This document shows, piece by piece, positions 1-28,209 of a DNA stretch of 29,996 nt. This DNA comes from a virus. The stretch covers positions 1 to 29,996 of IMG/VR virus record IMGVR_UViG_3300037517_001803; one strand, 5' to 3'. The notes under the pieces are model-generated. The model saw nothing but the letters and a program-made list of their open reading frames with translations. It was not told the origin of the DNA and ran no database searches. Each line of letters opens with the position of its first letter. The first letter of the stretch is position 1. Position numbers and translations under genes: made by a program.

Positions 1-2203
1 GGATAGGAGTTCCTTTTACATAAATTGTAGCAGCATCAGCATATCCTTTCGGATCAGCGTCAAGACCTTTAACGCCTCTCGGAAAAGCAACATCCTCGAA
101 AGGCAGTGTCATGAACTTAGCTTTGAACTCTTCAATAAACTGAATCAATTCATTTTGATCGCCGTTCATGATAATACCGAATGCTTTCTTAATGTTCTCG
201 CGACAAGCATGTGGAGTTGAAGAACGAACAGCTTCAATACCAGACAACTTCAGCTTGGGTTTATCATACTGCACACCTTCAACGTTCCAAGCATTGAGAA
301 TGTACATTTTCTTACCACGCCAGATACCCTTGTTGGCAATGGTTTCACGCTTCATCTTCATCTTCTGCTGATATGCATTCATCATATCAGCCAGTTCCTG
401 ATAGCACTGATCCATATATGGCTGAATTTTTAGTTCACAGAAAGCGTCGATAGCTCCCACGATAAAATGGTCATCGTCAATTTTAAGATGCTTTACTAAC
501 TCCTCCATTGTAACATAGATTGAGTCAGTGTCAGAAGCGATTACATAGTCAATATCTGTTGTATTGAGAACCTTGTTCATGAACTGGTTCATTTTCTTTT
601 CGATCCAACGAATAGAAAGCTGACCAGACATAGTGATAGCTTCTGCGTGGTTATGGTTGAACCAACGGAAGTACTGGTTACCCAAAGCACCATAAGCAGA
701 GTTCAGCTGAATTTTCTTGGCCAGCTGCATGTTATGATAACGAGCAACCAACTTAGCATCTTCTGGGTTTTTAGTTTCTTCATAACGTTTCTTTGCTTCA
801 ATCATAAGCTTCTTATACTCTGATCGGCTGTTATACATTTTTTCCATCAAAGCAGGAAGAAATCCCTGCTTTTCGCGAGTATAATAACAACCATTGGCAG
901 CATAAGCAACACCAGCCGCTGAACGATATGGTGAACCAAACGGATACTTAAGATCAAGCAAATCATCGATACTAGGCATGTCGTCAAGTTTACCAACAAA
1001 AGTTTCTGGACTGATGTTGTACTGCATAATCAGGTGCGGATACAGTGAGTTTAAGTCGAACGACACAACCCACTTACTCAAACCAATCTTTGGTTCTTTA
1101 ACGTGACCACCGACCAATGCTTCGTTGTCAGGCTGCTTCTTGAACTGTGGGATGACAATGTTCTGCTCTAGCAGATAGTTGTGAATGATCACATCCCATG
1201 AGCGAACAGTTGTCATTGTGTCCGAATAGTTTACCTTGGCGTCATAGGCAAGCGCCATCACCTGTTCTAGAAACTTCAGCTTGTCGTCGAGTTTCTCGAC
1301 CAGCACAACGTCTTGAATGTTATACTCAATAAACTTTTGATAATCTTTTTTATACAATTCTAACAGATTACCATACTCTGAGTAGTCAACCTTTTTCTCA
1401 CCAAGTTCAATTTGTGAAATATAGTCAAGCTTATACGACTCTTGATTACCAAAAGTAAACTTGCGATAGAGTTGATAGTAGTCTAGAACTGTGATACCAA
1501 CAGGCTCATAGCTTTGGTTTTCTTTACCTTTGAACTCAACCATACGTTCATTTAAGATTCCCCATGGCGAGAGTTTCTTTGCTTCGGACATACCAAGCAA
1601 ACTTTTAATTCTGTTTACCAAGTATGGCATGTCGAAAAACTCGACGTTCCAACCTGTTACAATGTCCATGTCCAAATGCTGCCAAGCAAGCAAAAACTTA
1701 GCAAGCAAGTCATATTCATTCTTACATCTTAGATAACTTGTATTGGGATCATTGCTGATGAAATGTCCGCAACCAAACACATAGTTCGTTCCTTGGAAAC
1801 GTAATGCAATTGCAGTAATTTCTTTGTCGGCTTTTTGGATGTTAGGGAATCCTTCGTCGGCAGCGACCTCGATGTCTATGTTACCGATACGAATAGTTTT
1901 TGGATCGTAGTTTATTTCACCTTTGAATGCATCAAAAATATATACGTATGTAAATGCATTCAGACCATAGATTTCCATGTTGGATACATCTTCATATCTT
2001 CCAATAAAATCTTTAGCATCTGAAATGCTATCAAACTGCATCTTTTCGACGGGTTTATTATCTAACGTGCGATACTTACCACCTTGTTTTTGAATAAACA
2101 TATAAGGATGGTAGTTTTCAATGAACTTAGAACGTTTACCATTCTTAAACCCACGAACATAAATTTTATCACCACGTTGGAAAACACTTGTATAAAAATC
2201 CAA
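1..2203 (-). CDS. 43: DNA polymerase, family B, T4 gp43-like (3' end outside window)
   Basis: Replicative phage DNA polymerase with 3'-5' exonuclease; 734 codons are visible and the C-terminus lies beyond position 1 (T4 gp43 has 898 residues). Seen directly: Exo I NIDIEVA with D110/E112 (T4 has D112/E114), Exo II NVEFFDMPYLVNR, Exo III YNIQDV, polymerase motif A SFDLNSLYPHLI (D383), motif B KIQLNSAYGALGNQ, and motif C ASDTDSIYV (D558/D560). All catalytic carboxylates are present. The start is TTG at 2201-2203 with GGAGG six bases upstream; it gives the family-typical N-terminus MDFYTSVFQRGDKIYVRG, whereas the first ATG would remove that conserved strand. Last gene of the minus block in view, with its own leader behind a terminator. 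Confidence 0.97.
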   Translation of the reverse strand, partial: MDFYTSVFQRGDKIYVRGFKNGKRSKFIENYHPYMFIQKQGGKYRTLDNKPVEKMQFDSISDAKDFIGRYEDVSNMEIYGLNAFTYVYIFDAFKGEINYDPKTIRIGNIDIEVAADEGFPNIQKADKEITAIALRFQGTNYVFGCGHFISNDPNTSYLRCKNEYDLLAKFLLAWQHLDMDIVTGWNVEFFDMPYLVNRIKSLLGMSEAKKLSPWGILNERMVEFKGKENQSYEPVGITVLDYYQLYRKFTFGNQESYKLDYISQIELGEKKVDYSEYGNLLELYKKDYQKFIEYNIQDVVLVEKLDDKLKFLEQVMALAYDAKVNYSDTMTTVRSWDVIIHNYLLEQNIVIPQFKKQPDNEALVGGHVKEPKIGLSKWVVSFDLNSLYPHLIMQYNISPETFVGKLDDMPSIDDLLDLKYPFGSPYRSAAGVAYAANGCYYTREKQGFLPALMEKMYNSRSEYKKLMIEAKKRYEETKNPEDAKLVARYHNMQLAKKIQLNSAYGALGNQYFRWFNHNHAEAITMSGQLSIRWIEKKMNQFMNKVLNTTDIDYVIASDTDSIYVTMEELVKHLKIDDDHFIVGAIDAFCELKIQPYMDQCYQELADMMNAYQQKMKMKRETIANKGIWRGKKMYILNAWNVEGVQYDKPKLKLSGIEAVRSSTPHACRENIKKAFGIIMNGDQNELIQFIEEFKAKFMTLPFEDVAFPRGVKGLDADPKGYADAATIYVKGTPI

Positions 2204-2228
2204 CTCGTACCTCCAAACCAAAGTTATA

Positions 2229-2257
2229 TTATACACTAAACAAACATAAAAGTAAAG
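2229..2257 (-). promoter_or_regulatory. Probable promoter for gp43
   Basis: On the minus strand TTTACT, 17 bp, TATAAT. The -10 is a perfect consensus and the -35 is of T4-early flavour. It lies in the U-tract of the preceding terminator and about 25 nt before the TTG start. It lacks the TTAATTC spacer element found at most other promoters here. Confidence 0.5.
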
Positions 2258-2273
2258 GGGGATTGCTCCCCCT
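2246..2273 (-). terminator. Rho-independent terminator after hsp20-DUF1127
   Basis: Minus-strand stem GGGGGA / TCCCCC with loop GCAA (2258-2273), followed by TTTACTTTT. It sits between the DUF1127 stop and the gp43 start, so it separates the two transcription units. Confidence 0.8.
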
Positions 2274-2305
2274 CTTTAAACCTTTATCGACCAAAGTATA
2301 TGGAA

Positions 2306-2473
2306 TTATCTTTTACCTTCCATCACTACACGTTCAATGTCATATCTACTGATACCAATGTCTGCTAAATCTTTGTCAGTCATTGCTTTAAGATCACGAA
2401 TTGCGCGACTTTGTTCGCTAGATCTTAGTTTTCCAAATATTGCATCTGATAATAGGCTAAAAGCTGTAAACAT
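2306..2473 (-). CDS. DUF1127-type small protein (55 aa)
   Basis: A 55-residue protein. The C-terminal half reads AIRDLKAMTDKDLADIGISRYDIERVV, close to the DUF1127 (YjiS-like) pattern LxxLsDreLaDIGlsRxdI that is abundant in alphaproteobacteria, where members are small, basic and sometimes RNA- or phosphate-stress-related. SD AAGGAA lies seven bases before ATG. The start is two bases beyond the hsp20 stop, so the two genes are co-transcribed and probably coupled; a terminator follows. Uncommon cargo for a T4-like phage; likely taken from a host. The family assignment is by motif reading only. Confidence 0.85.
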   Translation of the reverse strand: MFTAFSLLSDAIFGKLRSSEQSRAIRDLKAMTDKDLADIGISRYDIERVVMEGKR

Positions 2474-2475
2474 TT

Positions 2476-2958
2476 TTATTCCTTTGTGTTTTGTTTTGTT
2501 TTGTCTACAATATCAATCTTCTTGGGCTTTTTTTCTTCAGGAATAATATTTTCCAACCATAGCTTTAACATACCATTTACAAGTTCAGCATTCTTCACTT
2601 CAACTGTATCAGCTAAAGTAAATTTACGAGTGAACGAACGATCCGCAATGCCCTTATAAAGATACTGAATTGGGTTTGTTGGATCCAGCTGATCTAGCGT
2701 CAAACCACCTTTAACAACAAGAGTGTTGTTTGCAATTTCAATGTCAATGTTCTGCTTACCGAAACCAGCAACAGCCATTTCGATAACATACTTGTTTTCA
2801 TCAACCTTTGCAATATTATATGGGGGGTATCCTGGAATTCCCTTTAGGGTTTCTTCATGAACCTTGCCAAGTGTTTGGAGCATCTTGTCTGCTCCAATAA
2901 ACATTCTGCTGAAGTTGTTACCTGGGAATCCGTTAAATGAAAATACATCATTAGTCAT
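2476..2958 (-). CDS. Small heat shock protein, Hsp20/IbpA-like
   Basis: A 160-aa alpha-crystallin-domain chaperone. YPPYNI (about residues 44-49) is the class A IbpA signature, followed by the core beta-strands with VIEMAVAGF, and NGMLKLWLENIIPEEKKPKKIDI matches the IbpA end GxLxIxLxxxIPExxKPrrIxI. Hsp20 genes are common in large T4-like phages, where they are thought to hold client proteins during infection. ATG has SD AAGGAG six to seven bases upstream. Upstream is a TATAAT and a hairpin at what would be the 5' end of the mRNA; downstream it is followed by a DUF1127 gene. Confidence 0.95.
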   Translation of the reverse strand: MTNDVFSFNGFPGNNFSRMFIGADKMLQTLGKVHEETLKGIPGYPPYNIAKVDENKYVIEMAVAGFGKQNIDIEIANNTLVVKGGLTLDQLDPTNPIQYLYKGIADRSFTRKFTLADTVEVKNAELVNGMLKLWLENIIPEEKKPKKIDIVDKTKQNTKE

Positions 2959-2991
2959 AGTTTTCTCCTTATGTAAGCGAGATTGAATTAA

Positions 2992-3010
2992 TGGTCCCTT
3001 TCGGCGACCA
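2992..3010 (-). promoter_or_regulatory. 5'-leader hairpin of hsp20 mRNA
   Basis: Minus-strand TGGTC-G-CC-GAAA-GG-GACCA: seven pairs with one bulged G and a GNRA tetraloop. It lies just after the predicted transcription start of hsp20 and about 34 nt before its ATG. It has no U-tract, so a stabilising or regulatory 5' stem-loop fits better than a terminator. Confidence 0.5.
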
Positions 3011-3013
3011 CGT

Positions 3014-3042
3014 ATTATATAGGCACGTGAGATATTACTTTA
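3014..3042 (-). promoter_or_regulatory. Probable hsp20 promoter
   Basis: Perfect minus-strand -10 TATAAT at 3014-3019 in the gap upstream of hsp20; the -35 is poor (TAAAGT at 17 bp). It may need an activator. Confidence 0.35.
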
Positions 3043-3048
3043 AAGTGG

Positions 3049-3303
3049 TTAGTGTAATTTTTTTCCGAATGTCTCTTTTGCTACACAATATACGTCCATA
3101 TTTCTAATATCAAGTATGAACATAGGAGTCATTTCTGCCTTCTTGTATTCAGATGCTGCCAATAACATTCTTGAAAAACTGTTATCAGACTCACCCATTT
3201 CTATCGCAGTTTCGGCAGAAGCTTCCATAATATGTTCTGGAATAACTTTATATGAAGACATATCGAACCCTTTTTCAGGGTATTTATTCGATTTTATACT
3301 CAT
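3049..3303 (-). CDS. Hypothetical protein (84 aa)
   Basis: Not recognised. It contains a helical central part (SAETAIEMGESDNSFSRMLLAASEYKKAEMTP) and a C-terminal strand-rich FILDIRNMDVYCVAKE. The 5' end overlaps the CSCxxCGNPR gene by 20 bp, typical of tightly packed phage operons. An internal ATG (MSSYKVIPEH) 14 codons in is preceded by AAAGGG and could be the true start, giving about 70 aa. Confidence 0.7.
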   Translation of the reverse strand: MSIKSNKYPEKGFDMSSYKVIPEHIMEASAETAIEMGESDNSFSRMLLAASEYKKAEMTPMFILDIRNMDVYCVAKETFGKKLH

Positions 3304-3517
3304 TAATACGCTTCTCTTGCATTGTCAATTTATCCTTTTGGTGGCGGCGAGGATTGCCACATATATAACAAGAACAAGGTGTGCGTGTTTCTGCTATTCT
3401 TCTTATATGTTGCTCGCGAGATTCTTCGCCCCAAAACCATCTTTTAATCCAATGAAACTTAGAAACCTTTTGCTTCATGCGTTCATGGTGGTGACGACGT
3501 TCTGCTCTTGTTCTCAT
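3284..3517 (-). CDS. Small CSCxxCGNPR-motif protein (77 aa)
   Basis: Basic N-terminus MRTRAERRHHHERMKQK, then a W/F-rich middle and a conserved C-terminal block PCSCYICGNPRRHQKDKLTMQEKR. I recognise the pattern CSCxMCGNPR...LTxQE as a small family of unknown function in phages and bacteria; the two or three cysteines suggest a metal site (inference). The start is set by the ATG one base after the TAA of the upstream 54-aa gene and by SD GAGG; upstream in-frame ATGs overlap that gene. Confidence 0.75.
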   Translation of the reverse strand: MRTRAERRHHHERMKQKVSKFHWIKRWFWGEESREQHIRRIAETRTPCSCYICGNPRRHQKDKLTMQEKRINEYKIE

Positions 3518-3518
3518 G

Positions 3519-3683
3519 TTACCTCGATCTATCTGGATACCACTTTCCGTCATAGTATTCTCCGTGGCGTGCGGACTCATAATCCGACCACCCGGGATTA
3601 TCCACCTTTTTTCTTTCAACAACTTGAGATGCATTTACACTAGCTGTCTGAGTTCCTGCAACACTATAAGCTACTGCTTTCAT
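3519..3683 (-). CDS. Hypothetical protein (54 aa)
   Basis: A short ORF whose product begins MKAVAYSVAGTQTASVNAS and ends SDYESARHGEYYDGKWYPDR; the SDYESARHG..YDGKW part looks like a folded aromatic C-terminal motif. Its ATG lies inside the end of the upstream coiled-coil gene (20-bp overlap) and its TAA is one base from the next ATG, an arrangement that argues for translational coupling. No strong SD. Function unknown. Confidence 0.55.
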   Translation of the reverse strand: MKAVAYSVAGTQTASVNASQVVERKKVDNPGWSDYESARHGEYYDGKWYPDRSR

Positions 3684-3882
3684 AAATTACATTACTCAGA
3701 TCTATTCCGCACTTACCACATTTAGGTTTGTGGTAAAGTGGTCCTGGAGGAGTTGTTGGCCAAGTAGGATTTACAGGATAAGGATATCGACCAGTTTCTA
3801 ACTGGGCAACCCTACCCTCCAAATACACCAGTCTTGTCTGTAGGTGTCGTATCATTTCCTCTAGTTCTTCGTTCGAGCTCAT
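3664..3882 (-). CDS. Coiled-coil protein with CxxC (72 aa)
   Basis: N-terminal heptad-like helix MSSNEELEEMIRHLQTRLVYLEGRVAQLE, a proline-rich linker PTWPTTPPGP, and C-terminal CGKCGIDLSNV, a half zinc-ribbon. Such short coiled-coil plus zinc-knuckle proteins are common phage accessory proteins of unknown role; dimerisation with a shared metal site is an inference. SD AAAGGG lies nine bases before ATG. It overlaps its upstream neighbour by 71 bp in another frame. Confidence 0.7.
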   Translation of the reverse strand: MSSNEELEEMIRHLQTRLVYLEGRVAQLETGRYPYPVNPTWPTTPPGPLYHKPKCGKCGIDLSNVIYESSSL

Positions 3883-4018
3883 CGTGAAACCCTTTCATAA
3901 ATTCTCTGTAAATCGTAGGTGAGTCAAGCATTAGTTCGCAATACAAACGACCAAAGTCCTTCGCGTGACTGTAGTAATAATCCTTGACCAACTTTTCGTT
4001 ATATTGCCAACCAAACAT
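3812..4018 (-). CDS. Hypothetical protein (68 aa)
   Basis: MFGWQYNEKLVKDYYYSHAKDFGRLYCELML..., rich in aromatic and charged residues, predicted mostly helical. I chose the ATG at 4016-4018 (SD TGAGTGA); a GTG five codons upstream overlaps the end of the preceding gene. The 3' end overlaps the coiled-coil gene by 71 bp, so the real boundaries are less sure. Not recognised. Confidence 0.55.
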   Translation of the reverse strand: MFGWQYNEKLVKDYYYSHAKDFGRLYCELMLDSPTIYREFMKGFHDELERRTRGNDTTPTDKTGVFGG

Positions 4019-4023
4019 TTCAC

Positions 4024-4761
4024 TCAGTCCCACAATGATTGATAGTACTTACCGAAAAGAGTAAATCCATTCTGCTTGCGCTTGTGATATGCATCATACT
4101 TTTCTTTGTTGAACTTACCACGCTCACGTTCGCGCTTCTCTGACCAAAATGATTCTTCTTTTTCAACCACAGTGCCATCAGCTTTCAAAACACTGTACAT
4201 GCGAGGTTCAATTACTTCATCAGGAGCATAAGGATCATAGAAATTCTTATCGCCTTCGTCTTCATCAAGTTCCTGCTCAAAACTCCAGATCATCTGATCA
4301 AGAACCCAAAGCCACTGTGACTGAAACTTTTCGTCTACTGCAACACGTTCTTCTGCAGTGGCATTTAAACTCTTATCGTAGCAACCATGATTGAAAACTG
4401 CATCTTCTCTTTCAGAGAAAAGAAGATGTTCTGGCAAGTCTTCCTTGCTTACAAAGGGACTGCCATGCTTTGTATCTCTAAGCTGCTTGAGCATAGGTAG
4501 AGCGATATGTGCCAGCGTATGATCCATTGACCAAATGTCATAGTTGTCAATGCGAACATTGATCTTACGTTTTCGCTCACTGATAAGCTTATTGATTGTT
4601 GCATCTAAAACAGTTTGACACCAGCCCTCAAGCTTTTCGAGAAGCTTCTCAAAAAGAGTCGAGCTTTCTTCCCAATCATACTTGTACTTCTTGTTCATGA
4701 ACTTGTAATGGAAAGTAGCAGCGTAACGATTATTTGTATATGGTCCGATATATACTTTCAT
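4024..4761 (-). CDS. Conserved T4-like phage protein (245 aa)
   Basis: Begins MKVYIGPY and contains RIDNYDIWSMDHTLAHIALPMLKQL, a block I recognise as widely conserved in T4-like and cyanophage genomes in a protein of unknown function. The C-terminal third is highly charged (EKRERERGKFNKEKY). The ATG overlaps the stop of the glycosyltransferase gene (ATGA), so it is co-translated with it. No catalytic motif could be assigned. Confidence 0.85.
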   Translation of the reverse strand: MKVYIGPYTNNRYAATFHYKFMNKKYKYDWEESSTLFEKLLEKLEGWCQTVLDATINKLISERKRKINVRIDNYDIWSMDHTLAHIALPMLKQLRDTKHGSPFVSKEDLPEHLLFSEREDAVFNHGCYDKSLNATAEERVAVDEKFQSQWLWVLDQMIWSFEQELDEDEGDKNFYDPYAPDEVIEPRMYSVLKADGTVVEKEESFWSEKRERERGKFNKEKYDAYHKRKQNGFTLFGKYYQSLWD

Positions 4762-5759
4762 TTATCTCTCTCTAAATTATTAACGAAAATGTTCCAAACA
4801 ACTTCCCAAGACCAACTATCCCTAGCAACTATACTACATTTTTTTCTTGATAAAGTCAAGCACTTTTTTATCGCTTTTTCCAAATCATTATCTAGTAATC
4901 CAGTATACTTGTTGTCTACAACGTCAATTGGACCTTGAACGGGATATGCAGCAACAGGAGTTCCACAATACATAGACTCAATCATTACTACACCAAAGGT
5001 GTCTGCCTTGCTAGTGAAGACAAAACAGTCCGCAGTTTGATAAAACTCAGCGAGTTCTTTGCCAAACTTATATCCAACAAACTTTACATTTGGATATTTT
5101 TCTTCAAGTTCTTTCTTATACGGGCCATCACCAACTACAATCTTAACATACTTATCTGGCAATGAACAGAACACATCTAAATTTTTCTCTTTTGAAACTC
5201 TGCCCACAGATAGAAGTATTGGTTGTTCTTTGCTTTTTGTGTATCTAGGTGTGAAGATTTCTGGGTCAACACCTCTTGGCCAAATAACTTGTCTGCGACC
5301 AATCTCATTATCAATCATAAACTGTCTAACAGTTTCAGTTGGACAAAATACTTTACGTTTTCTATGAAACCATTTAATGTAGTTTCTAGTAATCCATTCA
5401 GGAACACCAGCAACTTCTTTCATAAACTTTGACCAGTCTGTATGATAAGATGTGGTGTATCTTCTGTTTTTAGCGGTTAAAATAAATGCAGCAGCAAGAC
5501 CTAGCGGTCCTTCAGTCGCGATATGATAGACGGTATCAGTTTTATATTTGAGATACTTAGATATCCCAATAGGTATTGCAAATGGTATTTCAGGATAAAC
5601 TTTAGAGTGAAGTTTCCTCTTAAATAACCCAGGATGGACAACAACGATATCGTATCCATCTCTCTTAGCAAACTCCACCATTTTCTTTAATGTGGTAACA
5701 ACACCACTTACTTGCGGTTCCCATGCGTCTGTTACTATGACTATTCTTTTGAAGTCCAA
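4758..5759 (-). CDS. Glycosyltransferase family 4 (GT-B fold), 333 aa
   Basis: A GT4-type retaining glycosyltransferase. The N-terminal KRIVIVTDAWEPQVSGVVTTL is the acceptor-side glycine loop; the C-terminal domain has LLSVGRVSKEKNLD, VGDGPYKKEL, and ADTFGVVMIESMYCGTPV with the nucleotide-sugar Glu (E-x7-E region). The closest style is bacterial alpha-mannosyltransferase/MgtA-like enzymes. The start is TTG at 5757-5759 with GGGAG eight bases upstream; it gives the canonical short N-terminus, while the ATG 20 codons earlier lies inside the LpxH-like gene. It overlaps that gene by 19 bp. The pair probably modifies an envelope lipid or glycan (inference). Confidence 0.9.
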   Translation of the reverse strand: MDFKRIVIVTDAWEPQVSGVVTTLKKMVEFAKRDGYDIVVVHPGLFKRKLHSKVYPEIPFAIPIGISKYLKYKTDTVYHIATEGPLGLAAAFILTAKNRRYTTSYHTDWSKFMKEVAGVPEWITRNYIKWFHRKRKVFCPTETVRQFMIDNEIGRRQVIWPRGVDPEIFTPRYTKSKEQPILLSVGRVSKEKNLDVFCSLPDKYVKIVVGDGPYKKELEEKYPNVKFVGYKFGKELAEFYQTADCFVFTSKADTFGVVMIESMYCGTPVAAYPVQGPIDVVDNKYTGLLDNDLEKAIKKCLTLSRKKCSIVARDSWSWEVVWNIFVNNLERDK

Positions 5760-6496
5760 TGAACTATCTCCCAGGTGCCATCTGTGTTTTCTACGAGTGC
5801 TGTACAACTTTCCACCCAATCTCCAGAGTTCATATACTCAACTCCGTTGATTTGTTTGATCACAGCAGTATGTATATGCCCGCAGATTACACCATCATAG
5901 CCTTGAGACTTACAATAATCAGAAAGAGTGCTTTCAAAATCAAATATAAAGTTCACAGCACCTTTTACATTAGCCTTTAGATATGCAGACAAACTCCAAT
6001 AACCAAAACCAAAAAACTGACGAACTCTGTTATAGAGTTTGTTCAGTTTGAGCAATATGGCATATGCGTTGTCGCCAAGGTAACTTAACCATTTTGCGAC
6101 CTTGTGTACACCATCAAATAGATCACCATGCACTACCAAATATCTTTTGCCGTTTAGTGCCTGATAATCATGTGTGTCTTTGATTTCAATAGACTCAATG
6201 TCAATTGAAACGTCTAACCATTCACGAAGAAACTCATCATGGTTGCCTGTAAGATAGACAACTTTAGAACCATGACGCTGTTTGTTGATTATCTGGCGAA
6301 TGACAAGTGAATGTGATTGTGGCCAGAAGACACGCTTTCTTAGCTTCCATCCATCAATAATATCACCAACAAGAAATAGATTGTCACAAGAATGATTTTT
6401 AAGGAAAGAGTTAACTCCATCTGCCTGTGATCCTTCGCTTCCTAAATGGATGTCTGATATAAAGATAGAGTTATAGTGCTTGATCTTCTTTTTCAT
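5741..6496 (-). CDS. LpxH-like metallophosphoesterase (251 aa)
   Basis: Calcineurin-like fold resembling UDP-2,3-diacylglucosamine diphosphatases of alphaproteobacteria. Metal ligands are visible: D15/H17 (SDIHLG), D45 (GDIIDGW), N85/H86 (GNHDE), H123 (VHGD), H207/H209 (GHIH). LpxH releases lipid X during lipid A synthesis; whether this copy does so or acts on another glycolipid is unknown. Coupled to a GT4 gene, a pairing I recall from alphaproteobacterial chromosomes, so the module may be captured host DNA (inference). The RBS before ATG is weak. Confidence 0.88.
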   Translation of the reverse strand: MKKKIKHYNSIFISDIHLGSEGSQADGVNSFLKNHSCDNLFLVGDIIDGWKLRKRVFWPQSHSLVIRQIINKQRHGSKVVYLTGNHDEFLREWLDVSIDIESIEIKDTHDYQALNGKRYLVVHGDLFDGVHKVAKWLSYLGDNAYAILLKLNKLYNRVRQFFGFGYWSLSAYLKANVKGAVNFIFDFESTLSDYCKSQGYDGVICGHIHTAVIKQINGVEYMNSGDWVESCTALVENTDGTWEIVHWTSKE

Positions 6497-6509
6497 TTAA
6501 GATTTTAAT

Positions 6510-6749
6510 TTAGATATTCTGTCCAGGCTTCTGAGTTGCAGCCTTAATATCATCTGCTGTAATTGATTTGCAAATGAAAAAAGTCGTACCAGCATTTGTA
6601 CCAATCTCAATCTGTTTCTTATCAACTAACTCTTGACCAGCGGCATTACATTCTTGTTCGTTGTTGTATTCGGGCTTGTTAGGAAAATGAACATCGGTAT
6701 AGACATCACCGTTGCTCATGACAATATTTAAAACGATAAACCAAATCAT
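6510..6749 (-). CDS. Hypothetical protein with hydrophobic N-terminus (79 aa)
   Basis: MIWFIVLNIVMSNGDVYTDVHFPNKPEYNNEQECNAAG: a short hydrophobic start then a soluble domain with two Cys (about residues 34 and 60) that could form a disulfide. Similar small phage proteins of the pattern IVLNIVLSNGDV..VxFPN...F..E..CNxxG exist; function unknown. The N-terminal segment may be an uncleaved anchor or the first beta strand. SD AGGAG seven bases before ATG. Confidence 0.7.
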   Translation of the reverse strand: MIWFIVLNIVMSNGDVYTDVHFPNKPEYNNEQECNAAGQELVDKKQIEIGTNAGTTFFICKSITADDIKAATQKPGQNI

Positions 6750-6752
6750 GAC

Positions 6753-6950
6753 TTACTCCTTTGCGTCATCAATTGCTATAATAATTTGTCTTAGGACATC
6801 TTCTCCAGGAATATGATTGTCCAAGTTAATCATGCCTGGAGTTTTACGACCAGCTTGAAACCCGCTGATCCAGCACCTAAGTTTCTGTAGTTCTATTTTC
6901 CAATGCTGCTCCACTGGGATCTTCAGCTTCTTCTGCGGCGATTTCGTCAT
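6753..6950 (-). CDS. Hypothetical protein (65 aa)
   Basis: MTKSPQKKLKIPVEQHWKIELQKLRCWISGFQAG... ending PGEDVLRQIIIAIDDAKE. The block LQKLRCWISGFxAG...PG.D.LRQ.QIII is one I have seen in small phage proteins; no function is known. SD AAAGG five bases before ATG. It overlaps the upstream gene by 74 bp in a different frame, so some reading of shared DNA is unavoidable. Confidence 0.6.
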   Translation of the reverse strand: MTKSPQKKLKIPVEQHWKIELQKLRCWISGFQAGRKTPGMINLDNHIPGEDVLRQIIIAIDDAKE

Positions 6951-7185
6951 TCAACCTTTTCCTGAAATCTATGACCATAATTGTGAAAGAAACAAACATC
7001 ATGCCATATTTGGACATTAGGATCATATACTTTTCCCAAGCAGCATCCTTATTTTCTTTCGGCTCGTCGGGAAGTGACTTATAATAATCATAGTATTCTG
7101 TTACGAATTTTGCACAGTCTTCAAGTTCATCAAACTGTAGCGTTTCTACATACTTAATAAACTCTTCTTTTGTGAAACTTTTCAT
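6877..7185 (-). CDS. Hypothetical protein (102 aa)
   Basis: MKSFTKEEFIKYVETLQFDELEDCAKFVTEYYDYYKSLP..., an acidic helical protein with a hydrophobic stretch MILMSKYGMMFVSFTIMVIDF near residues 54-74 that could be a membrane or buried helix. The start lies just past the TAA of the upstream gene with GAAGGG as SD; earlier in-frame ATGs run through that gene. Not recognised. Confidence 0.7.
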   Translation of the reverse strand: MKSFTKEEFIKYVETLQFDELEDCAKFVTEYYDYYKSLPDEPKENKDAAWEKYMILMSKYGMMFVSFTIMVIDFRKRLNDEIAAEEAEDPSGAALENRTTET

Positions 7186-7186
7186 T

Positions 7187-7516
7187 TTAAGACCCTTCCA
7201 TGCTAATTGTTCTATCAGTTTTTTCGTAAACCTGCGTCCAACCAACGCCATAACACGGTACCACCTCAATGTACTGAGGCAAACCATTGCTGTCGCGCTC
7301 GCCATAACCATGCCAAGCAAACCAGCCTGGATACTTATCTACGTACATACGCTGGATTACCAATGCTTGCTTGTCAGCCTTGTCAATGATTCGCACCAAC
7401 TCACTACGACAATGTAGCAGTAGTTCGCGAACCTTGTGTGGTTCCATTTCTTCTGGATTAAACATACCACCCATCTGCAGGTAGTTGTCAATCATTTCAA
7501 TTGTCGGATGGTTCAT
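7187..7516 (-). CDS. Hypothetical protein (109 aa)
   Basis: N-terminus MNHPTIEMIDNYLQMGGMFNPEEMEPHKVRELLLHCR is a helical block I have seen at the start of small phage proteins; the rest (YPGWFAWHGYGERDSNGLPQYIEV) looks beta-rich. The ATG overlaps the stop of the zinc-ribbon gene by four bases (ATGA). Function unknown. Confidence 0.7.
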   Translation of the reverse strand: MNHPTIEMIDNYLQMGGMFNPEEMEPHKVRELLLHCRSELVRIIDKADKQALVIQRMYVDKYPGWFAWHGYGERDSNGLPQYIEVVPCYGVGWTQVYEKTDRTISMEGS

Positions 7517-7713
7517 CTTGTCATGTATCCTTTATATCCACATTCTGTGTTAGAACATTGTACGTTGATCTTAGGTGGATCGCTCGTTAACATAATACCT
7601 GGAGTAGGATTAAACAACTCGCTGCCACAGTGGTCACAAGCAATTGCTAGACCAGATGGCTCGAGCCGATAATAGTTTCTATTTTCTGACTCGTGTTCTC
7701 TTAACGTTTTCAT
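7513..7713 (-). CDS. Zinc-ribbon protein (66 aa)
   Basis: Contains CDHCGSEL and CSNTECGYKGYM, a four-cysteine zinc ribbon (CxxC...CxxxxC) resembling nucleic-acid-binding ribbons. SD AAGGA seven bases before ATG. Such proteins often bind DNA, RNA or RNA polymerase, but nothing here identifies the target. Confidence 0.75.
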   Translation of the reverse strand: MKTLREHESENRNYYRLEPSGLAIACDHCGSELFNPTPGIMLTSDPPKINVQCSNTECGYKGYMTR

Positions 7714-7716
7714 TTC

Positions 7717-8250
7717 TTATTCCTTCACAATAGCTAGGAGTTGCTCATACTGTTCATCAAGTTGCTTCCAGAAAGAATGATACCTATCATTATAGAGAGC
7801 AAACTTGAAGTATAGATATTCTGAAGCATAGTCTTTTGCAAACCTTACTTCCTTATTAGCAATAGTCCTAGAATGATTATGCCAACGATCTGCCATTTTA
7901 ACAAAGATGGAAGTGTTATACCGACGAGTACGATAGTATGTGTTGAGGTGTCGTTCAGTTCGTGTTGAACCTTTACCATCAGTCACTGCATCTACAAACT
8001 CAGCAATATCAAATCCAAATGTGTCATAGATGTCTTCACATGTTACTGATGTGTCTTCAATGGTGTCATGCAGCCATCCAACAGTAACAGCATCATCAAG
8101 AGAAAAAGTACAATCATTCTCATTTGCAATGTACTCTTCACGAATCTTATCAGTCACTGCTGTAAGATGGTCTTCCATTGAGAGACAACCATGTCGTTGG
8201 TTGCTATGGACACGCAGTGCAAATTCTTTAGCCTTGTCAATAATATTCAT
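7717..8250 (-). CDS. HD-domain phosphohydrolase, RelA/SpoT hydrolase-like (177 aa)
   Basis: Seen: WLHDTIEDT (H61, D62, E65, D66) and VKMADRWHN (D121, N125), the hallmarks of the (p)ppGpp hydrolase domain of RelA/SpoT and MESH1 enzymes; the N-terminal helix AKEFALRVHSNQRHG fits the first HD helix. There is no synthetase domain. Likely a stand-alone alarmone or nucleotide hydrolase acting in the cytoplasm; clearing host (p)ppGpp during infection is an inference. Start ATG at 8248-8250 with GAGG six bases upstream; it overlaps the TGA of the upstream gene closely. Confidence 0.85.
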   Translation of the reverse strand: MNIIDKAKEFALRVHSNQRHGCLSMEDHLTAVTDKIREEYIANENDCTFSLDDAVTVGWLHDTIEDTSVTCEDIYDTFGFDIAEFVDAVTDGKGSTRTERHLNTYYRTRRYNTSIFVKMADRWHNHSRTIANKEVRFAKDYASEYLYFKFALYNDRYHSFWKQLDEQYEQLLAIVKE

Positions 8251-8251
8251 C

Positions 8252-8470
8252 TCAATCCTCAATCGCATCAATACGGAAAGTTTGATTAGGCTCTACGTTT
8301 AAAGTACGATCCATATCCTTAGAACCATCAGGATTCCAAGAACGAACACGAATCTTGTTAATTCCTGCAGGAACTTTCCAAGTAGCAGAGTTCCTGTTGC
8401 TGTTTGCATTAGCAGCAGCTGCAAAAAATGGTAGTGTGAATAGTCCTGCCAGCAAAAGGCGCTTTCTCAT
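8252..8470 (-). CDS. Exported small protein with signal peptide (72 aa)
   Basis: MRKRLLLAGLFTLPFFAAAANA is a classical Sec signal peptide with an AxA cleavage site near residue 22. The mature part (about 50 aa) is short and beta-like: WKVPAGINKIRVRSWNPDGS. The pattern VPAGxxKIRVRSW is like small surface or jelly-roll fragments in phages. I chose the second ATG because AAGGA is seven bases upstream of it and only one from the first. Likely periplasmic; role unknown. Confidence 0.8.
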   Translation of the reverse strand: MRKRLLLAGLFTLPFFAAAANANSNRNSATWKVPAGINKIRVRSWNPDGSKDMDRTLNVEPNQTFRIDAIED

Positions 8471-8485
8471 TATCATATCCTTATA

Positions 8486-9145
8486 TTATAGGTCAACGTC
8501 AATAAAGACAAGTTCGCCAAGGCACTGGAAAGTAGTACCGTTGATTTTCTGCCTACGAGTGTTATGCCAATGACCAAACACCCAAAGTTCCGGCTGATGC
8601 ATTTCAAACATCGCCTGTAATGCTTCACCAGTGCGCGTGTAGATCTGTTTGTTATCACCAAGACCTAATCCCTTGCTAAGAAATATTTCCCAAGCGACTG
8701 ATGTGGGACAGTCGTGTGTGATCATAACACGAGGTTTCAGCTGTACATACTGTTCAATAATTTTTTCGAACCTCTGTGAACTTACCTCTTCTCCTGGCCA
8801 CCAATCGACCATAGGTGTACGATGTGCAAAGTCGATTGACCAAGCACCACCAACATACATCACATCGCCTTCAACCGTACCATCCTCGATATATCCAGGC
8901 ATGGTCTTACACAGTTCCGGATCATCGTGATTACCACGAATGAAACGATGCTGTGGGTGTTCTTTCTGCCACTCGATTTCTTTCTCGTGCCAAAACGGAC
9001 TAAAGAAACCGATACCGAAGTCACCCACCTGAATAGAACGTTCGGGCTGAACAATTTGTCTACCACGAACGCCTGTGACAAGCGCGTAACTTCGGTAATC
9101 GTAGATATTACCGTGGATGTCGCCAATGATGCGTGTTAGCGCCAT
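8486..9145 (-). CDS. Calcineurin-like metallophosphoesterase (219 aa)
   Basis: Second metallophosphoesterase of the window, unrelated in detail to the LpxH-like one. Ligands: D9/H11 (GDIHG), D42 (VGDFG), N72/H73 (RGNHD), H144 (THDCP), H192/H194 (GHWH). The GDIHG...GNHDD style is of protein/small-molecule phosphatases like phage lambda phosphatase and ApaH; the substrate cannot be told. SD GAGAGGAT upstream of ATG. It follows a 48-aa gene in the same operon. Confidence 0.92.
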   Translation of the reverse strand: MALTRIIGDIHGNIYDYRSYALVTGVRGRQIVQPERSIQVGDFGIGFFSPFWHEKEIEWQKEHPQHRFIRGNHDDPELCKTMPGYIEDGTVEGDVMYVGGAWSIDFAHRTPMVDWWPGEEVSSQRFEKIIEQYVQLKPRVMITHDCPTSVAWEIFLSKGLGLGDNKQIYTRTGEALQAMFEMHQPELWVFGHWHNTRRQKINGTTFQCLGELVFIDVDL

Positions 9146-9148
9146 AAT

Positions 9149-9295
9149 TTAGATCCTCTCGATAATGGGCTTTCCGACAATCCCCGCCTTGACTTCGCGA
9201 ATATAAGCGAATGCGTCCTGCATCAACTTAAACTTCTTGGTCTTATCAACCAAGAAACCGTTCTTGTCCTTAACAGTGTAGATTACCTTGAACAT
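9149..9295 (-). CDS. Hypothetical protein (48 aa)
   Basis: MFKVIYTVKDKNGFLVDKTKKFKLMQDAFAYIREVK..., a small beta-beta-alpha-like protein. Good SD (AGGAG, then GCGAA) and its own promoter at 9320-9348. The stop is three bases before the phosphoesterase ATG, so the two form an operon. Not recognised. Confidence 0.7.
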   Translation of the reverse strand: MFKVIYTVKDKNGFLVDKTKKFKLMQDAFAYIREVKAGIVGKPIIERI

Positions 9296-9319
9296 TTCGC
9301 TCTCCTTATCTTAGGATTA

Positions 9320-9348
9320 AGTATAACGCCATCTGAATTTAAAGGCAA
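9320..9348 (-). promoter_or_regulatory. TTAAT-class promoter (minus), drives 48-aa gene and phosphoesterase
   Basis: TTGCCT, then spacer of 17 bp starting TTAAATTC, then TATACT. Same architecture as the plus-strand family. It overlaps the intergenic gap before the 109-aa gene's stop. Confidence 0.8.
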
Positions 9349-9354
9349 GTCTAT

Positions 9355-9684
9355 TTATTTGCTCCAGTCCATCGCTGCCCAGTTACGATCTTCAAGTAAC
9401 TCGACCTGATCAGGATACTTTTCTAGCAATTGCTGCCAGACAGGTGCTGTTGCCATACGCAATCCATAAGTGTCAACATAACAATTATATACAGAACCGG
9501 ATGACCCGTAAAATTGCCAGCGATCAGTCGTAACGTCATAGACGCACTTATCAATACCACTGTTAAGACGCCAACTATCGCCGTTAAGATATCCGCCAGA
9601 CCAACCACCAAGCACCTTATAGAATACTTGGCCCTCGTTTGTTATACGAATAATTACCCAACTGTCTGGTGCATATTCAGCCAT
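9355..9684 (-). CDS. Hypothetical protein (109 aa)
   Basis: MAEYAPDSWVIIRITNEGQVFYKVLGGWSGGYLNGDSWRLNSGI...: beta-rich with many W/Y/G, resembling a small phage protein family with W.I...G...YKVL.GW.GGYL.GDSWR. Unknown function. The start ATG at 9682-9684 has GAGG upstream; an earlier TTG/ATG would overlap the next gene more. Confidence 0.75.
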   Translation of the reverse strand: MAEYAPDSWVIIRITNEGQVFYKVLGGWSGGYLNGDSWRLNSGIDKCVYDVTTDRWQFYGSSGSVYNCYVDTYGLRMATAPVWQQLLEKYPDQVELLEDRNWAAMDWSK

Positions 9685-9692
9685 TACCAACC

Positions 9693-9839
9693 TCACTGAC
9701 CAACATATTCGAACACATAGGTATACTTACCATCCGCCCATTCCTTCACCTTGATTACCTTCCAACGTTCGGAACGGAATTCATGCGCATACTTACGCTT
9801 GAGGTAAGACAGAGAACCAGAAACAACCAACTTATCCAT
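9693..9839 (-). CDS. Hypothetical protein (48 aa)
   Basis: MDKLVVSGSLSYLKRKYAHEFRSERWKVIKVKEWADGKYTYVFEYVGQ: basic, strand-helix-strand. First gene of the transcript from the promoter at 9870-9897; the stop is eight bases before the next ATG. The RBS GGATTAGATCTA is weak to moderate. Function unknown. Confidence 0.65.
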   Translation of the reverse strand: MDKLVVSGSLSYLKRKYAHEFRSERWKVIKVKEWADGKYTYVFEYVGQ

Positions 9840-9869
9840 TAGATCTAATCCTTCATTTGCCACAGTGTG

Positions 9870-9897
9870 ATTATACTAGGTTTGGTATTAAAAGCAA
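9870..9897 (-). promoter_or_regulatory. TTAAT-class promoter (minus), drives 48-aa and 109-aa genes
   Basis: TTGCTT, 16-bp spacer starting TTAATACC, perfect TATAAT. The only family member with a 16-bp spacer; the start site falls about 20-25 nt before the gene at 9839. Confidence 0.75.
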
Positions 9898-9916
9898 CCA
9901 AAAAGTGTGACCAACT

Positions 9917-10219
9917 TTACTTACAATGTTTACGCAGGAACTCAACGTAAATAGACCACATGCACGCATCCTCGATCTCTTCATCGGTCAACGTGATCGC
10001 ATGAGCCTGTGTCTTCAGCTGCTTTGACGGATCGACCAACTTGCTTTTAAAATAATCGCTCCACAAATCGCGAGTGAGCTCAAGCTGACGTTCTGTCGCA
10101 TCGTGTTCTGTGTCGTCGACGGGCGACTGCTCGCCGTGGTAATAAAGGTAACACGCCCAGAGATATCGCTTCTCCGCCCAACGAACAGATGATACTAGTG
10201 CGGGATTATCGTTTGCCAT
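9917..10219 (-). CDS. Hypothetical protein (100 aa)
   Basis: MANDNPALVSSVRWAEKRYLWACYLYYHGEQSPVDDTEHDATERQLE...: helical. The YLYY...SPxxDxExD pattern is that of small phage proteins resembling the helical start of NAD-dependent ligases (LYY..D.P.isDaeYD), without any catalytic Lys motif. Start ATG at 10217-10219 with GGAG seven bases upstream. Confidence 0.75.
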   Translation of the reverse strand: MANDNPALVSSVRWAEKRYLWACYLYYHGEQSPVDDTEHDATERQLELTRDLWSDYFKSKLVDPSKQLKTQAHAITLTDEEIEDACMWSIYVEFLRKHCK

Positions 10220-20287: not shown

Positions 20288-20488
20288 ATGGCAACGCGAT
20301 ATTACGTCAATGGCGAGGATGAGCCCATCTGGTGCATCACTGCGATGACAAAGGGTGGAGCATGGGTGCTCGCAAAGCAGTATGTGAAGATGGGCTCGAA
20401 GCTCGTCGAGGAGCCCATGGAGCGCGATGACTCCGTGTGGGTCGTCATGGTCACGAATCCGTTCCTGGATGCTGCATCTTCCTCCTGA
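20288..20488 (+). CDS. Hypothetical protein (66 aa)
   Basis: MATRYYVNGEDEPIWCITAMTKGGAWVLAKQYVKMGSKLVEEPMERDDSVWVVMVTNPFLDAASSS: beta-alpha-beta layout. ATG at 20288 with GAGGTG seven bases upstream. Last gene of its transcript, followed by two hairpins. Confidence 0.7.
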   Translation: MATRYYVNGEDEPIWCITAMTKGGAWVLAKQYVKMGSKLVEEPMERDDSVWVVMVTNPFLDAASSS

Positions 20489-20549
20489 CAATGTCGGGGA
20501 GGGGGGATGTTGTAGCATTCGGGACTCCTCAGTTCCTCCGGGACCTGAG
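20481..20549 (+). other. Pair of hairpins after the small-gene array
   Basis: Hairpin 1 (20481-20502): CCTCC...GAC-AAT-GTC...GGAGG. Hairpin 2 (20528-20549): CTCAG-T-TCC-TCCG-GGA-C-CTGAG, closed by a C(UCCG)G UNCG-class tetraloop. Neither has a U-tract; they may stabilise the mRNA 3' end or belong to a structured RNA. The rest of 20550-20700 shows nothing I recognise. Confidence 0.5.
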
Positions 20550-20702
20550 TAAGGATCGTTCGACTTGTTTATTCCACACCAGCGACGAGCACCGACAAAC
20601 ACCAAAACTCCAGTAGCTTTTCATCAACTTTTTATAAAAAAAATCCGCGAAAAATTTTTCTGATTCTCTAACTTCAATGTATGAGTATTTTGAAGAAATA
20701 CC

Positions 20703-20731
20703 TTGACAATAATTCGTAACATTGGTATAAT
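20703..20731 (+). promoter_or_regulatory. TTAAT-class promoter, perfect consensus
   Basis: TTGACA, 17-bp spacer starting ATAATTCG, TATAAT. Drives the overlapping operon 20765-23291. Confidence 0.92.
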
Positions 20732-20764
20732 CACTAGTGTACCCATGATGATAAGGATAGATTG

Positions 20765-20977
20765 ATGACTAATGAGTTTGATCATGTAGACTTGAACGAG
20801 TTTACTGTGAACGACTTTACTCATGAGTTTTACTTGGATCTACACAGTTTGGTAGGTGTTGATGCAGTTACAGAGTTTGGATTACTCTTGAAGGAAAAGA
20901 AACCAAGCTTGTACTTTGAGTATCTGGTCAGGTTACAGGAATACTATTGGAGAGTGAGAGATGAGACCACAGTATAA
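20765..20977 (+). CDS. Hypothetical protein (70 aa)
   Basis: MTNEFDHVDLNEFTVNDFTHEFYLDLHSLVGVDAVTEFGLLLKEKKPSLYFEYLVRLQEYYWRVRDETTV: acidic, helical. ATG with AAGGAT six bases upstream. First gene of the operon; 17-bp overlap with the next. Not recognised. Confidence 0.7.
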   Translation: MTNEFDHVDLNEFTVNDFTHEFYLDLHSLVGVDAVTEFGLLLKEKKPSLYFEYLVRLQEYYWRVRDETTV

Positions 20978-26971: not shown

Positions 26972-27124
26972 ATGAAGTTGATCAAATTAGAAGAGTTTAT
27001 TATAGCTGATACCGGAGTAAAGGTCACGATTCTTGTTGACATTGCTACAATGGGTAAAGCATACGCTGAGGCTCATCTGAAATGGCCAAAGATATTATCG
27101 TTGAAGGAATACGAAAAACACTGA
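26972..27124 (+). CDS. Hypothetical protein (50 aa)
   Basis: MKLIKLEEFIIADTGVKVTILVDIATMGKAYAEAHLKWPKILSLKEYEKH. The last 11 codons are copied at 26923-26953. Its 3' end overlaps the tmRNA acceptor piece, so the same bases may be read as protein and as RNA. The SD is weak. Not recognised. Confidence 0.5.
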   Translation: MKLIKLEEFIIADTGVKVTILVDIATMGKAYAEAHLKWPKILSLKEYEKH

Positions 27125-27155
27125 GGACTGGGGGGCAGTACCCCACGCCTCCACC

Positions 27156-27229
27156 AAAGACACACTACCTAATAATAGCGGCGTACCCGTGGGGTTATTA
27201 GGAGTCTTGCAAGCTGGTGTGTCTTTGAT
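27156..27229 (+). other. Intervening segment of the permuted tmRNA
   Basis: Excised spacer between acceptor and coding pieces. It folds as a long hairpin: AAAGACACAC (27156-27165) with GTGTGTCTTT (27217-27226), and inside it CCTAATAA with TTATTAGG. The outer stem brings the two mature ends together for processing. Confidence 0.8.
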
Positions 27230-27313
27230 GGGGGCGAACTAGGATCGACTGAGTGTAGAATAGTTGACTGGAGATAATCGTAGGCGACTACGTACAAGCG
27301 CAAAACTCTAAAT

Positions 27314-27355
27314 GCAAACGATAACTTTGCACCTCGTTTGGCACTAGCTGCCTAA
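27314..27355 (+). other. tmRNA tag reading frame, ANDNFAPRLALAA
   Basis: From the resume codon GCA at 27314: GCA AAC GAT AAC TTT GCA ... GCT GCC TAA, giving ANDNFAPRLALAA and stop. ANDN start and hydrophobic-Ala-Ala end are those of bacterial tags; the AA end is recognised by ClpXP-type proteases. The middle (FAPRLAL) differs from the acidic AEEx of most alphaproteobacterial tags I recall. Confidence 0.93.
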
Positions 27356-27403
27356 CATGAGTCCGGTGGGTACTTGGAAACAGAAACCCACCACCAATTT
27401 CGC

Positions 27404-27432
27404 TTGACATTAAATCGGTGTCAGGGTACAAT
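27404..27432 (+). promoter_or_regulatory. TTAAT-class promoter, drives tRNA
   Basis: TTGACA, 17-bp spacer starting TTAAATCG, TACAAT; predicted start a few bases before the tRNA at 27442. The same class that drives protein cassettes. Confidence 0.88.
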
Positions 27433-27441
27433 GAATAATAA

Positions 27442-27524
27442 GGCCACGTAACCGAGGACGGCTTCTACCCGTTTACACGTAACTGGAGTTGCAAATGGGG
27501 GTTCGAATCCCTCCGTGGTCGCCA
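27442..27524 (+). tRNA. tRNA-like gene, probable tRNA-Arg(UCU), reduced D-arm
   Basis: Acceptor GGCCACG/CGTGGTC, T-arm GGGGG-TTCGAAT-CCCTC, encoded CCA (27522-27524). Anticodon arm GACGG-CTTCTAC-CCGTT gives UCU (27464-27466) with U33 and A37 correct. A class II-like variable arm GTAAC-TGGA-GTTGC (27479-27492) is present. Only eight bases (27449-27456) remain for the D-arm, so folding is unusual. UCU reads AGA, rare in alphaproteobacteria. Confidence 0.7.
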
Positions 27525-28117: not shown

Positions 28118-28209
28118 GGGCGTGGGTGTTGGTACACAAGAGCGGCTTATACTCGCTTTAGCACTAGATCGGTGTTCTCGACAGGGTTCGAATCCTTGCA
28201 CGCCTACCA
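28118..28209 (+). tRNA. tRNA, probable tRNA-Ile(UAU), long variable arm
   Basis: Acceptor GGGCGTG/CACGCCT, D-arm GTGT-TGGT-ACAC (four pairs with a four-base loop), anticodon arm AGCGG-CTTATAC-TCGCT giving UAU (28148-28150) with U33 and A37, a long variable arm AGCAC-TAGATCG-GTGTT (28160-28176), T-arm CAGGG-TTCGAAT-CCTTG, and encoded CCA (28207-28209). UAU reads AUA. A class II variable arm is atypical for Ile, so identity should be treated as provisional. Confidence 0.78.

Follow-up and report, generated by a model that had tools for sequence, protein, structure and literature searches.

The window, by which we mean the whole stretch of 29,996 bases that was analyzed, carries a gene for a predicted small alarmone hydrolase (SAH, an RSH hydrolase-only protein) on the minus strand at positions 7717-8250. 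The gene encodes 177 amino acids, from an ATG at 8250 to a stop codon at 7719-7717. The mechanically called open reading frame is longer (8271-7717, minus strand) and opens with a TTG. By reading the sequence, we found a GAGG 6 bases upstream of the ATG, and we consider the start at 8250 likelier than the longer TTG form at 8271. An earlier sequence-only reading of this DNA had placed the gene at 7717-8250, which corresponds exactly to the 177-aa frame begun at this ATG.

The SAH gene lies within a series of minus-strand genes. The gene directly upstream (8252-8476, minus strand) encodes a protein of 74 amino acids with a hydrophobic N-terminus and no PHROG match at E <= 0.001, and its stop codon lies 1 base before the SAH start codon. 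Judging from this spacing, the two genes are probably carried on one transcript. On the other side, the downstream gene starts 3 bases past the SAH stop. A metallophosphoesterase gene (8486-9145, minus strand; PHROG 1649, E 5.4e-37) is found two genes upstream of the SAH gene. At 4758-6496, also on the minus strand, two ORFs overlap, one for a glycosyltransferase and one for a phosphoesterase/exonuclease-like protein (PHROG 2170 and 7339/1649), and these two possibly form a surface- or lipid-modifying pair.

Phage context and the search for a synthetase

The source of the window is a fragment of a T4-like phage, with T4-type genes for a DNA polymerase, Hsp20, a helicase loader and a single-strand DNA-binding protein. 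The best matches listed for the DNA polymerase come from Synechococcus phages (approximately 48% identity), and a megablast search with the first 25 kb of the window matched no phage record. A sister viral contig (L001) is identical to window positions 1-9918 (100% match in three blastn pieces) and extends approximately 10 kb beyond window position 1, where it carries UvsX-, DnaB-helicase- and polynucleotide kinase-like genes. The alignment between the two breaks at window positions 3686/3687, with approximately 33 extra bases in the contig (L001 6234-6266).

On the plus strand, the window hosts a permuted, two-piece tmRNA gene (27038-27446; ARAGORN tag ANDNFAPRLALAA), which scores 119.4 bits with the Rfam model tmRNA_permuted and 100.9 bits with alpha_tmRNA. 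This type of tmRNA suggests an alphaproteobacterial link. Seven phage records match the tmRNA weakly, four of them annotated as SsrA, and two-piece phage tmRNAs have already been described in passages of a published report (PMC9004378). Just after the tmRNA lies a tRNA-like match (27442-27521, plus strand; Rfam RF00005, 31.6 bits) that ARAGORN did not call, and a tRNA-Ile(tat) gene is located at 28118-28209 on the same strand.

The sequence-only reading had described the hydrolase as occurring without a synthetase. This description holds for the sequence covered here, as the protein is a single domain of 177 residues and PF04607 (RelA_SpoT) was not found in the window, which is a viral record and possibly a fragment. 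Nor was PF04607 found in the sister contig, including the approximately 10 kb beyond window position 1. Of 28 other phage records, many of which may be fragments, 27 were likewise negative, and these include the records of SSU5 and PVP-SE1. As a control, the same profile was positive in 11 of 14 known genomes. In the single positive phage record, that of L081, the match lies at 46 kb, approximately 100 kb away from the SAH locus at 147-159 kb. In the window, the sister contig and the 27 negative records, the SAH thus does not belong to a linked pair of synthetase and hydrolase.

We also considered a toxin-antitoxin pair (toxSAS module) and rejected it, since no adjacent RelA_SpoT domain was detected in the window or the sister contig, a search that could miss a toxin that is too divergent. 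Linkage to an Apk2/MuF toxin was likewise not found: no RelA_SpoT domain occurs in the window or sister contig and the PHROG-named neighbors are not MuF, again with the proviso that a divergent toxin could be missed. The PHROG scan covered 20 window proteins, with many small window ORFs outside it. In PADLOC, the SAH was without match at E <= 0.01.

Fold, motifs and relatives of the predicted enzyme

We compared the SAH protein with profile collections and known structures. It matches PHROG 990, annotated as 'metal-dependent phosphohydrolase' (E 2.3e-23), and shows a local match to NCBIfam TIGR00691 (spoT_relA; E 2.9e-11), with 42.4 bits against a full-length cut-off of 499.2. Pfam HD_4 scores 20.2 bits on the protein alone, below its cut-off of 27.2, and is matched at E <= 0.01 by 35 of the 36 members of an alignment (A2) composed of the query and 35 of the best 80 viral-contig loci, hand-chosen for full length and variety. 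When the query and six phage relatives were combined into a profile and compared with the PDB, 24 distinct sequences matched at E <= 0.01, and almost all of them were Rel/SpoT, MESH1 or SAH chains.

The AlphaFold model built on A2 is confident (mean pLDDT 96.3, pTM 0.92). With this model, Foldseek gave 26 matches at E <= 0.001, all of them SAH, MESH1, Rel/SpoT/RelA chains or Listeria Lmo0812, and Pseudomonas aeruginosa SAH came out on top. The same protein (6yvc) was ranked first by VIA-align (Z 21.7, rmsd 2.3, 166 residues); human MESH1 reached Z 19.9, and rows 1-24 were again occupied by SAH, MESH1, Rel/SpoT/RelA chains or Lmo0812. Profile searches, model and structural matches therefore agree with the assignment to RelA/SpoT-type hydrolases that had been made from the sequence. 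That assignment had been said to fail if the structure matched other HD enzymes such as dNTPases instead. Such a match did not come out ahead: the best other HD enzyme, YpgQ, scores Z 13.1 (row 25) and OxsA Z 9.5, compared to 21.7 for P. aeruginosa SAH. Three long-RSH chains also score under YpgQ (6yxa, 12.8; 5kpv, 12.1; 5xnx, 10.9).

The two motifs claimed to be intact, HDTIEDT and MADRWHN, are indeed both in the translation, together with the upstream histidine H28. HDTIEDT covers residues 61-67 (8050-8070, minus strand), with H61-D62 plus E65-D66, and MADRWHN covers residues 119-125 (7876-7896, minus strand), with D121 and N125. All seven residues (H28, H61, D62, E65, D66, D121 and N125) are present and aligned with the Rel/MESH1 motifs. 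For single residues, roles in metal binding or base contact are predicted from the literature on RelSeq and MESH1. A search of all six window frames found the combined pattern H..HDxxED..Kx[AC]DxxxN a single time, and 300 order-2 Markov shuffles did not yield it at all.

Across all 36 sequences of A2, twelve positions do not vary (H15, H28, L60, H61, D62, E65, D66, T67, K118, D121, N125 and Y141). In an alignment of 49 sequences, composed of the query and 48 of the best 80 viral loci, hand-chosen for full length and variety, D121 and N125 are found in 49 out of 49 and H28 in 47, with gaps in the remaining two. The viral-contig relatives were gathered with a pattern demanding HDxxED, so that the conservation of H61, D62, E65 and D66 is partly by construction; H28, D121 and N125 are outside the demands of this pattern. 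Independently of it, HDxxED is present in nine of the ten phage relatives found by tblastn. The tenth, in Tenacibaculum phage PTm5 (L008, 2971-3561), has HDAVSD instead of HDxxED, with a serine at the place of one expected catalytic acid.

Relatives of the SAH are numerous and distant. A tblastn search of 50,697 phage records matched 171 of them, and 114 plasmid records host relatives, all below 60% identity in both cases. In viral contigs, at least 411 relatives were confirmed among at least 599 candidate stretches, and the nearest two among the matches listed, L013 and L014, are 42-43% identical to the query. According to its ORF list, L013 also bears an integrase-like ORF. The profile of A2 detects the SAHs of SSU5 (E 1.9e-35) and PVP-SE1 (E 1.1e-19) in their own records. 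A phage record of 254,743 bases (G006, the record of L020) encodes two different SAH-like proteins, at 20312-20800 and 225145-225630.

We built a tree of 85 rows, hand-chosen for full length and variety: 39 of the best 80 viral loci, 33 of 80 genome loci, ten phage loci, SSU5, PVP-SE1 and the query. The query groups with L013 and L014 in a three-row clade (100/99), and SSU5 falls in a separate 16-row clade (100/97) that does not include the query. The tree is poorly resolved, with 32 of 82 inner branches open, an unresolved backbone and an unsettled bootstrap. Because of this backbone, we gave up assigning the query to one of the SAH subgroups named in the 2011 RSH classification. PMC3153485 lists SAH subgroups, and a word-start search of its text did not find the word 'phage'.

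From the fold of the model, the conservation of the motif residues, the lack of a synthetase in the sequence covered and the presence of relatives in many phages, we conclude with high confidence that 7717-8250 encodes an intact small alarmone hydrolase, namely a metal-dependent HD-domain 3'-pyrophosphohydrolase of the RSH superfamily. This conclusion concerns the enzyme class alone.

The loop before the first metal histidine

Residues 19-28 (8167-8196, minus strand) form a short loop, RHGCLSMED, followed by the metal histidine H28. The loop of the query reads QRHGCLSMED (R-H-G) and is without the R-K pair of Rel and MESH1, whose chains have Q-x-R-K or R-R-K in the same stretch (Q-x-R-Q in M. 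tuberculosis Rel). The SSU5 SAH also has an R-K loop (QKRKYTGEDY), while a Q-x-D-K loop is shared by the Bacteroides (p)ppApp hydrolase 7smg, the Aph1-like protein L012 and the PVP-SE1 SAH. We read the D-K loop as a mark of (p)ppApp specificity and infer, partly from known structures, that the loop sets base preference. The query does not carry the D-K loop of 7smg and L012, by which an Aph1-type (p)ppApp hydrolase would be recognized. Since its loop differs from both the R-K loop of Rel, MESH1 and SSU5 and the D-K loop of the (p)ppApp hydrolase, the sequence does not allow us to name either (p)ppGpp or (pp)pApp as its substrate. As R-H-G replaces R-K in the sequence, alarmone recognition may differ from that of Rel, MESH1 and SSU5.

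In most of the phage relatives sampled, the loop is of the Y-G or H-G type (approximately 41 out of 52 phage rows, as counted by a rough script). With the same script, the 85 rows are divided into 51 YG/HG, 21 RK, 3 DK, 9 other and 1 unparsed, and YG/HG loops occur in 10 of the 33 genome-contig rows. These figures include misfiled rows, at least L110 and L136 as YG and L116 as RK, and PVP-SE1 is counted under 'other'; an earlier extraction failed for 3 of the 85 rows and shortened some loops. Because every row was picked for resembling the query or one of its relatives, these shares do not describe SAHs in general; loop type was read in 39 of the at least 411 viral-contig relatives, plus the other rows. 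Given the loop difference, the substrate of the YG/HG-loop group cannot be assumed. A bolder proposal is that SAHs with this loop, of which the query represents an HG-CL sub-branch, have as their substrate not free (p)ppGpp but another 3'-pyrophosphorylated molecule. The most interesting candidate would be the tRNA 3' end, which would make them a widespread phage enzyme for anti-toxSAS repair. We regard this proposal as unlikely. The loop difference offers a simple and testable basis of substrate choice.

Candidate roles and known phage hydrolases

We propose that, during infection, the phage SAH would take off the 3'-pyrophosphate with which the host modifies nucleotides (alarmones) or the 3' ends of tRNA. 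Translation and nucleotide supply could then continue despite the stringent response or a toxSAS-type abortive defense. Taken as a whole, an SAH with a role in removing host 3'-pyrophosphates is the explanation that we favor, with moderate confidence. For the biological role by itself, the removal of alarmone or tRNA 3'-pyrophosphate during infection, our confidence falls slightly short of even. The analogy with published phage SAHs (PMC11559606, PMC7644958, PMC9712102) makes a counter-defense or anti-stringent role plausible. Against the favored explanation, we counted that the SSU5 SAH shares only 28% identity with the query over 102 residues and belongs to a different clade. Furthermore, the 177-residue protein shows no extension that could bind RNA or tRNA, and both its R-H-G loop and its sub-threshold Pfam HD_4 score weigh on the same side.

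Several narrower or different functions have to be weighed against one another. The main task of the enzyme could be ordinary (p)ppGpp removal, which would lower host ppGpp and keep rRNA and tRNA synthesis and nucleotide pools high, with no dedicated link to defense. Such a task is in line with the (p)ppGpp hydrolases found among the best folds, and interference with (p)ppGpp signaling is what the authors of the phage Adele report suggest, in part of their text, for a phage SAH (PMC12846349). The query loop, however, is without the R-K pair common to Rel, MESH1 and the SSU5 SAH, and we treat this function as a tentative possibility. Alternatively, the SAH could counter toxSAS- or CapRel-like systems, either by restoring tRNA 3' ends or by clearing toxic (pp)pApp that the host makes once infection is sensed. 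Passages of two reports describe how two other phage SAHs neutralize toxSAS toxins (PMC11559606, PMC7644958), and the profile of A2 finds both proteins. Moreover, the tmRNA and tRNA genes on the phage fragment are compatible with the upkeep of translation. On the other hand, the neutralization in these passages relies on plasmid co-expression rather than natural infection, and the query lies outside the SSU5 clade and has neither an R-K nor a D-K loop, which leaves counter-defense of this kind possible and somewhat doubtful.

Two further functions depart from alarmones. The enzyme may act on another small molecule, for example NADPH or PAPS, both crystallized with MESH1, or on another 3'-phosphorylated nucleotide. 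The MESH1-NADPH and MESH1-PAPS complexes (5vxa and 9chy) are indeed among the closest structures, and two phage neighborhoods point in the same direction. In Mesorhizobium phage Cp1R7A-A1 (L003, 4983-8075), a relative with 34-37% identity lies directly before two NAD-salvage genes, and in Brevundimonas phage Bajun (L010, 3004-6486) a bifunctional NMN adenylyltransferase/nudix gene occurs approximately 2.2 kb downstream of the SAH relative; in these two phages, SAHs and NAD metabolism may be functionally linked. For the window we rejected such a link, since the 20 proteins scanned with PHROGs include no NAD genes. In PMC7644958, another report is cited for NADPH hydrolysis by human MESH1, but the authors themselves found none by Mesh1, MESH1 or SAHMex. 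We consider a target of this type distinctly unlikely. Finally, the protein could be a general HD nucleotidase or dNTPase (YfbR/OxsA/YpgQ-like), as these enzymes belong to the same HD superfamily and YpgQ and OxsA do appear lower in the structural list. The structural ranking does not by itself exclude such an activity. Together with the intact RSH-type E65-D66 and D121/N125 motifs, the distance of both enzymes from the top SAH in Z score makes this reading very improbable.

The favored explanation, removal of host 3'-pyrophosphates, would matter because the pyrophosphorylation of alarmones and tRNA is a known weapon in the conflict between bacteria and phages, and a few phage SAHs undo it when co-expressed. 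If the YG/HG-loop type truly does the same job, counter-defense of this sort would be common in phages.

In published work, CapRel restricts phage via tRNA pyrophosphorylation upon infection (PMC9712102), and the SSU5 SAH reverses the tRNA pyrophosphorylation made by FaRel2 (PMC11559606). FaRel toxicity is relieved by the SAHs of C. marina, PVP-SE1 and SSU5 and by human MESH1, and purine preference differs among SAHMex, RelSeq and Mesh1 (PMC7644958). Of the known systems, the SAH of Salmonella phage SSU5 (PaSpo-SSU5) resembles the query as a phage stand-alone RSH hydrolase with HDxxED and KxADxxxN motifs and no PF04607 in its record. It differs in its low identity, in its R-K loop and in its clade, which also includes gammaproteobacterial SAHs. 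The SAH of Salmonella phage PVP-SE1 is likewise phage-encoded and stand-alone, but has the same D-K loop as 7smg and groups, on a long branch, with the Aph1-like prophage protein L012.

Aph1 proteins are, according to sections of PMC12226406, immunity hydrolases of MuF/Apk2 toxins that hydrolyze (p)ppApp and are hosted by temperate phages. Like the query they are phage-encoded HD hydrolases; unlike it they are linked to a toxin gene, as the genes scanned around the query include no such neighbor. In Aggregatibacter phage S1249 (L012, 510-3423), a single small gene separates the minor head protein gene from the SAH-like D-K-loop gene that follows it, an arrangement that resembles the apk2-iapK-aph1 order given in those sections.

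P. aeruginosa SAH (6yvc, 6z3n, 6z3o) and human and fly MESH1 share the full-length fold of the query, as far as its predicted model can be compared (Z 19.3-21.7, rmsd 2.3-2.6, 165-168 residues). They are cellular rather than phage proteins, with 21-22% identity to the query. Phage Adele encodes a predicted SAH (PaAdele_032), also without an assigned substrate. Its authors state, in part of their text, that preference for (p)ppGpp or (p)ppApp is not reliably predictable (PMC12846349), and Adele belongs to a different phage group (Pakpunavirus). The stand-alone alarmone hydrolase of phages is already known as a kind, and the protein in the window belongs to a little-studied subtype of it.
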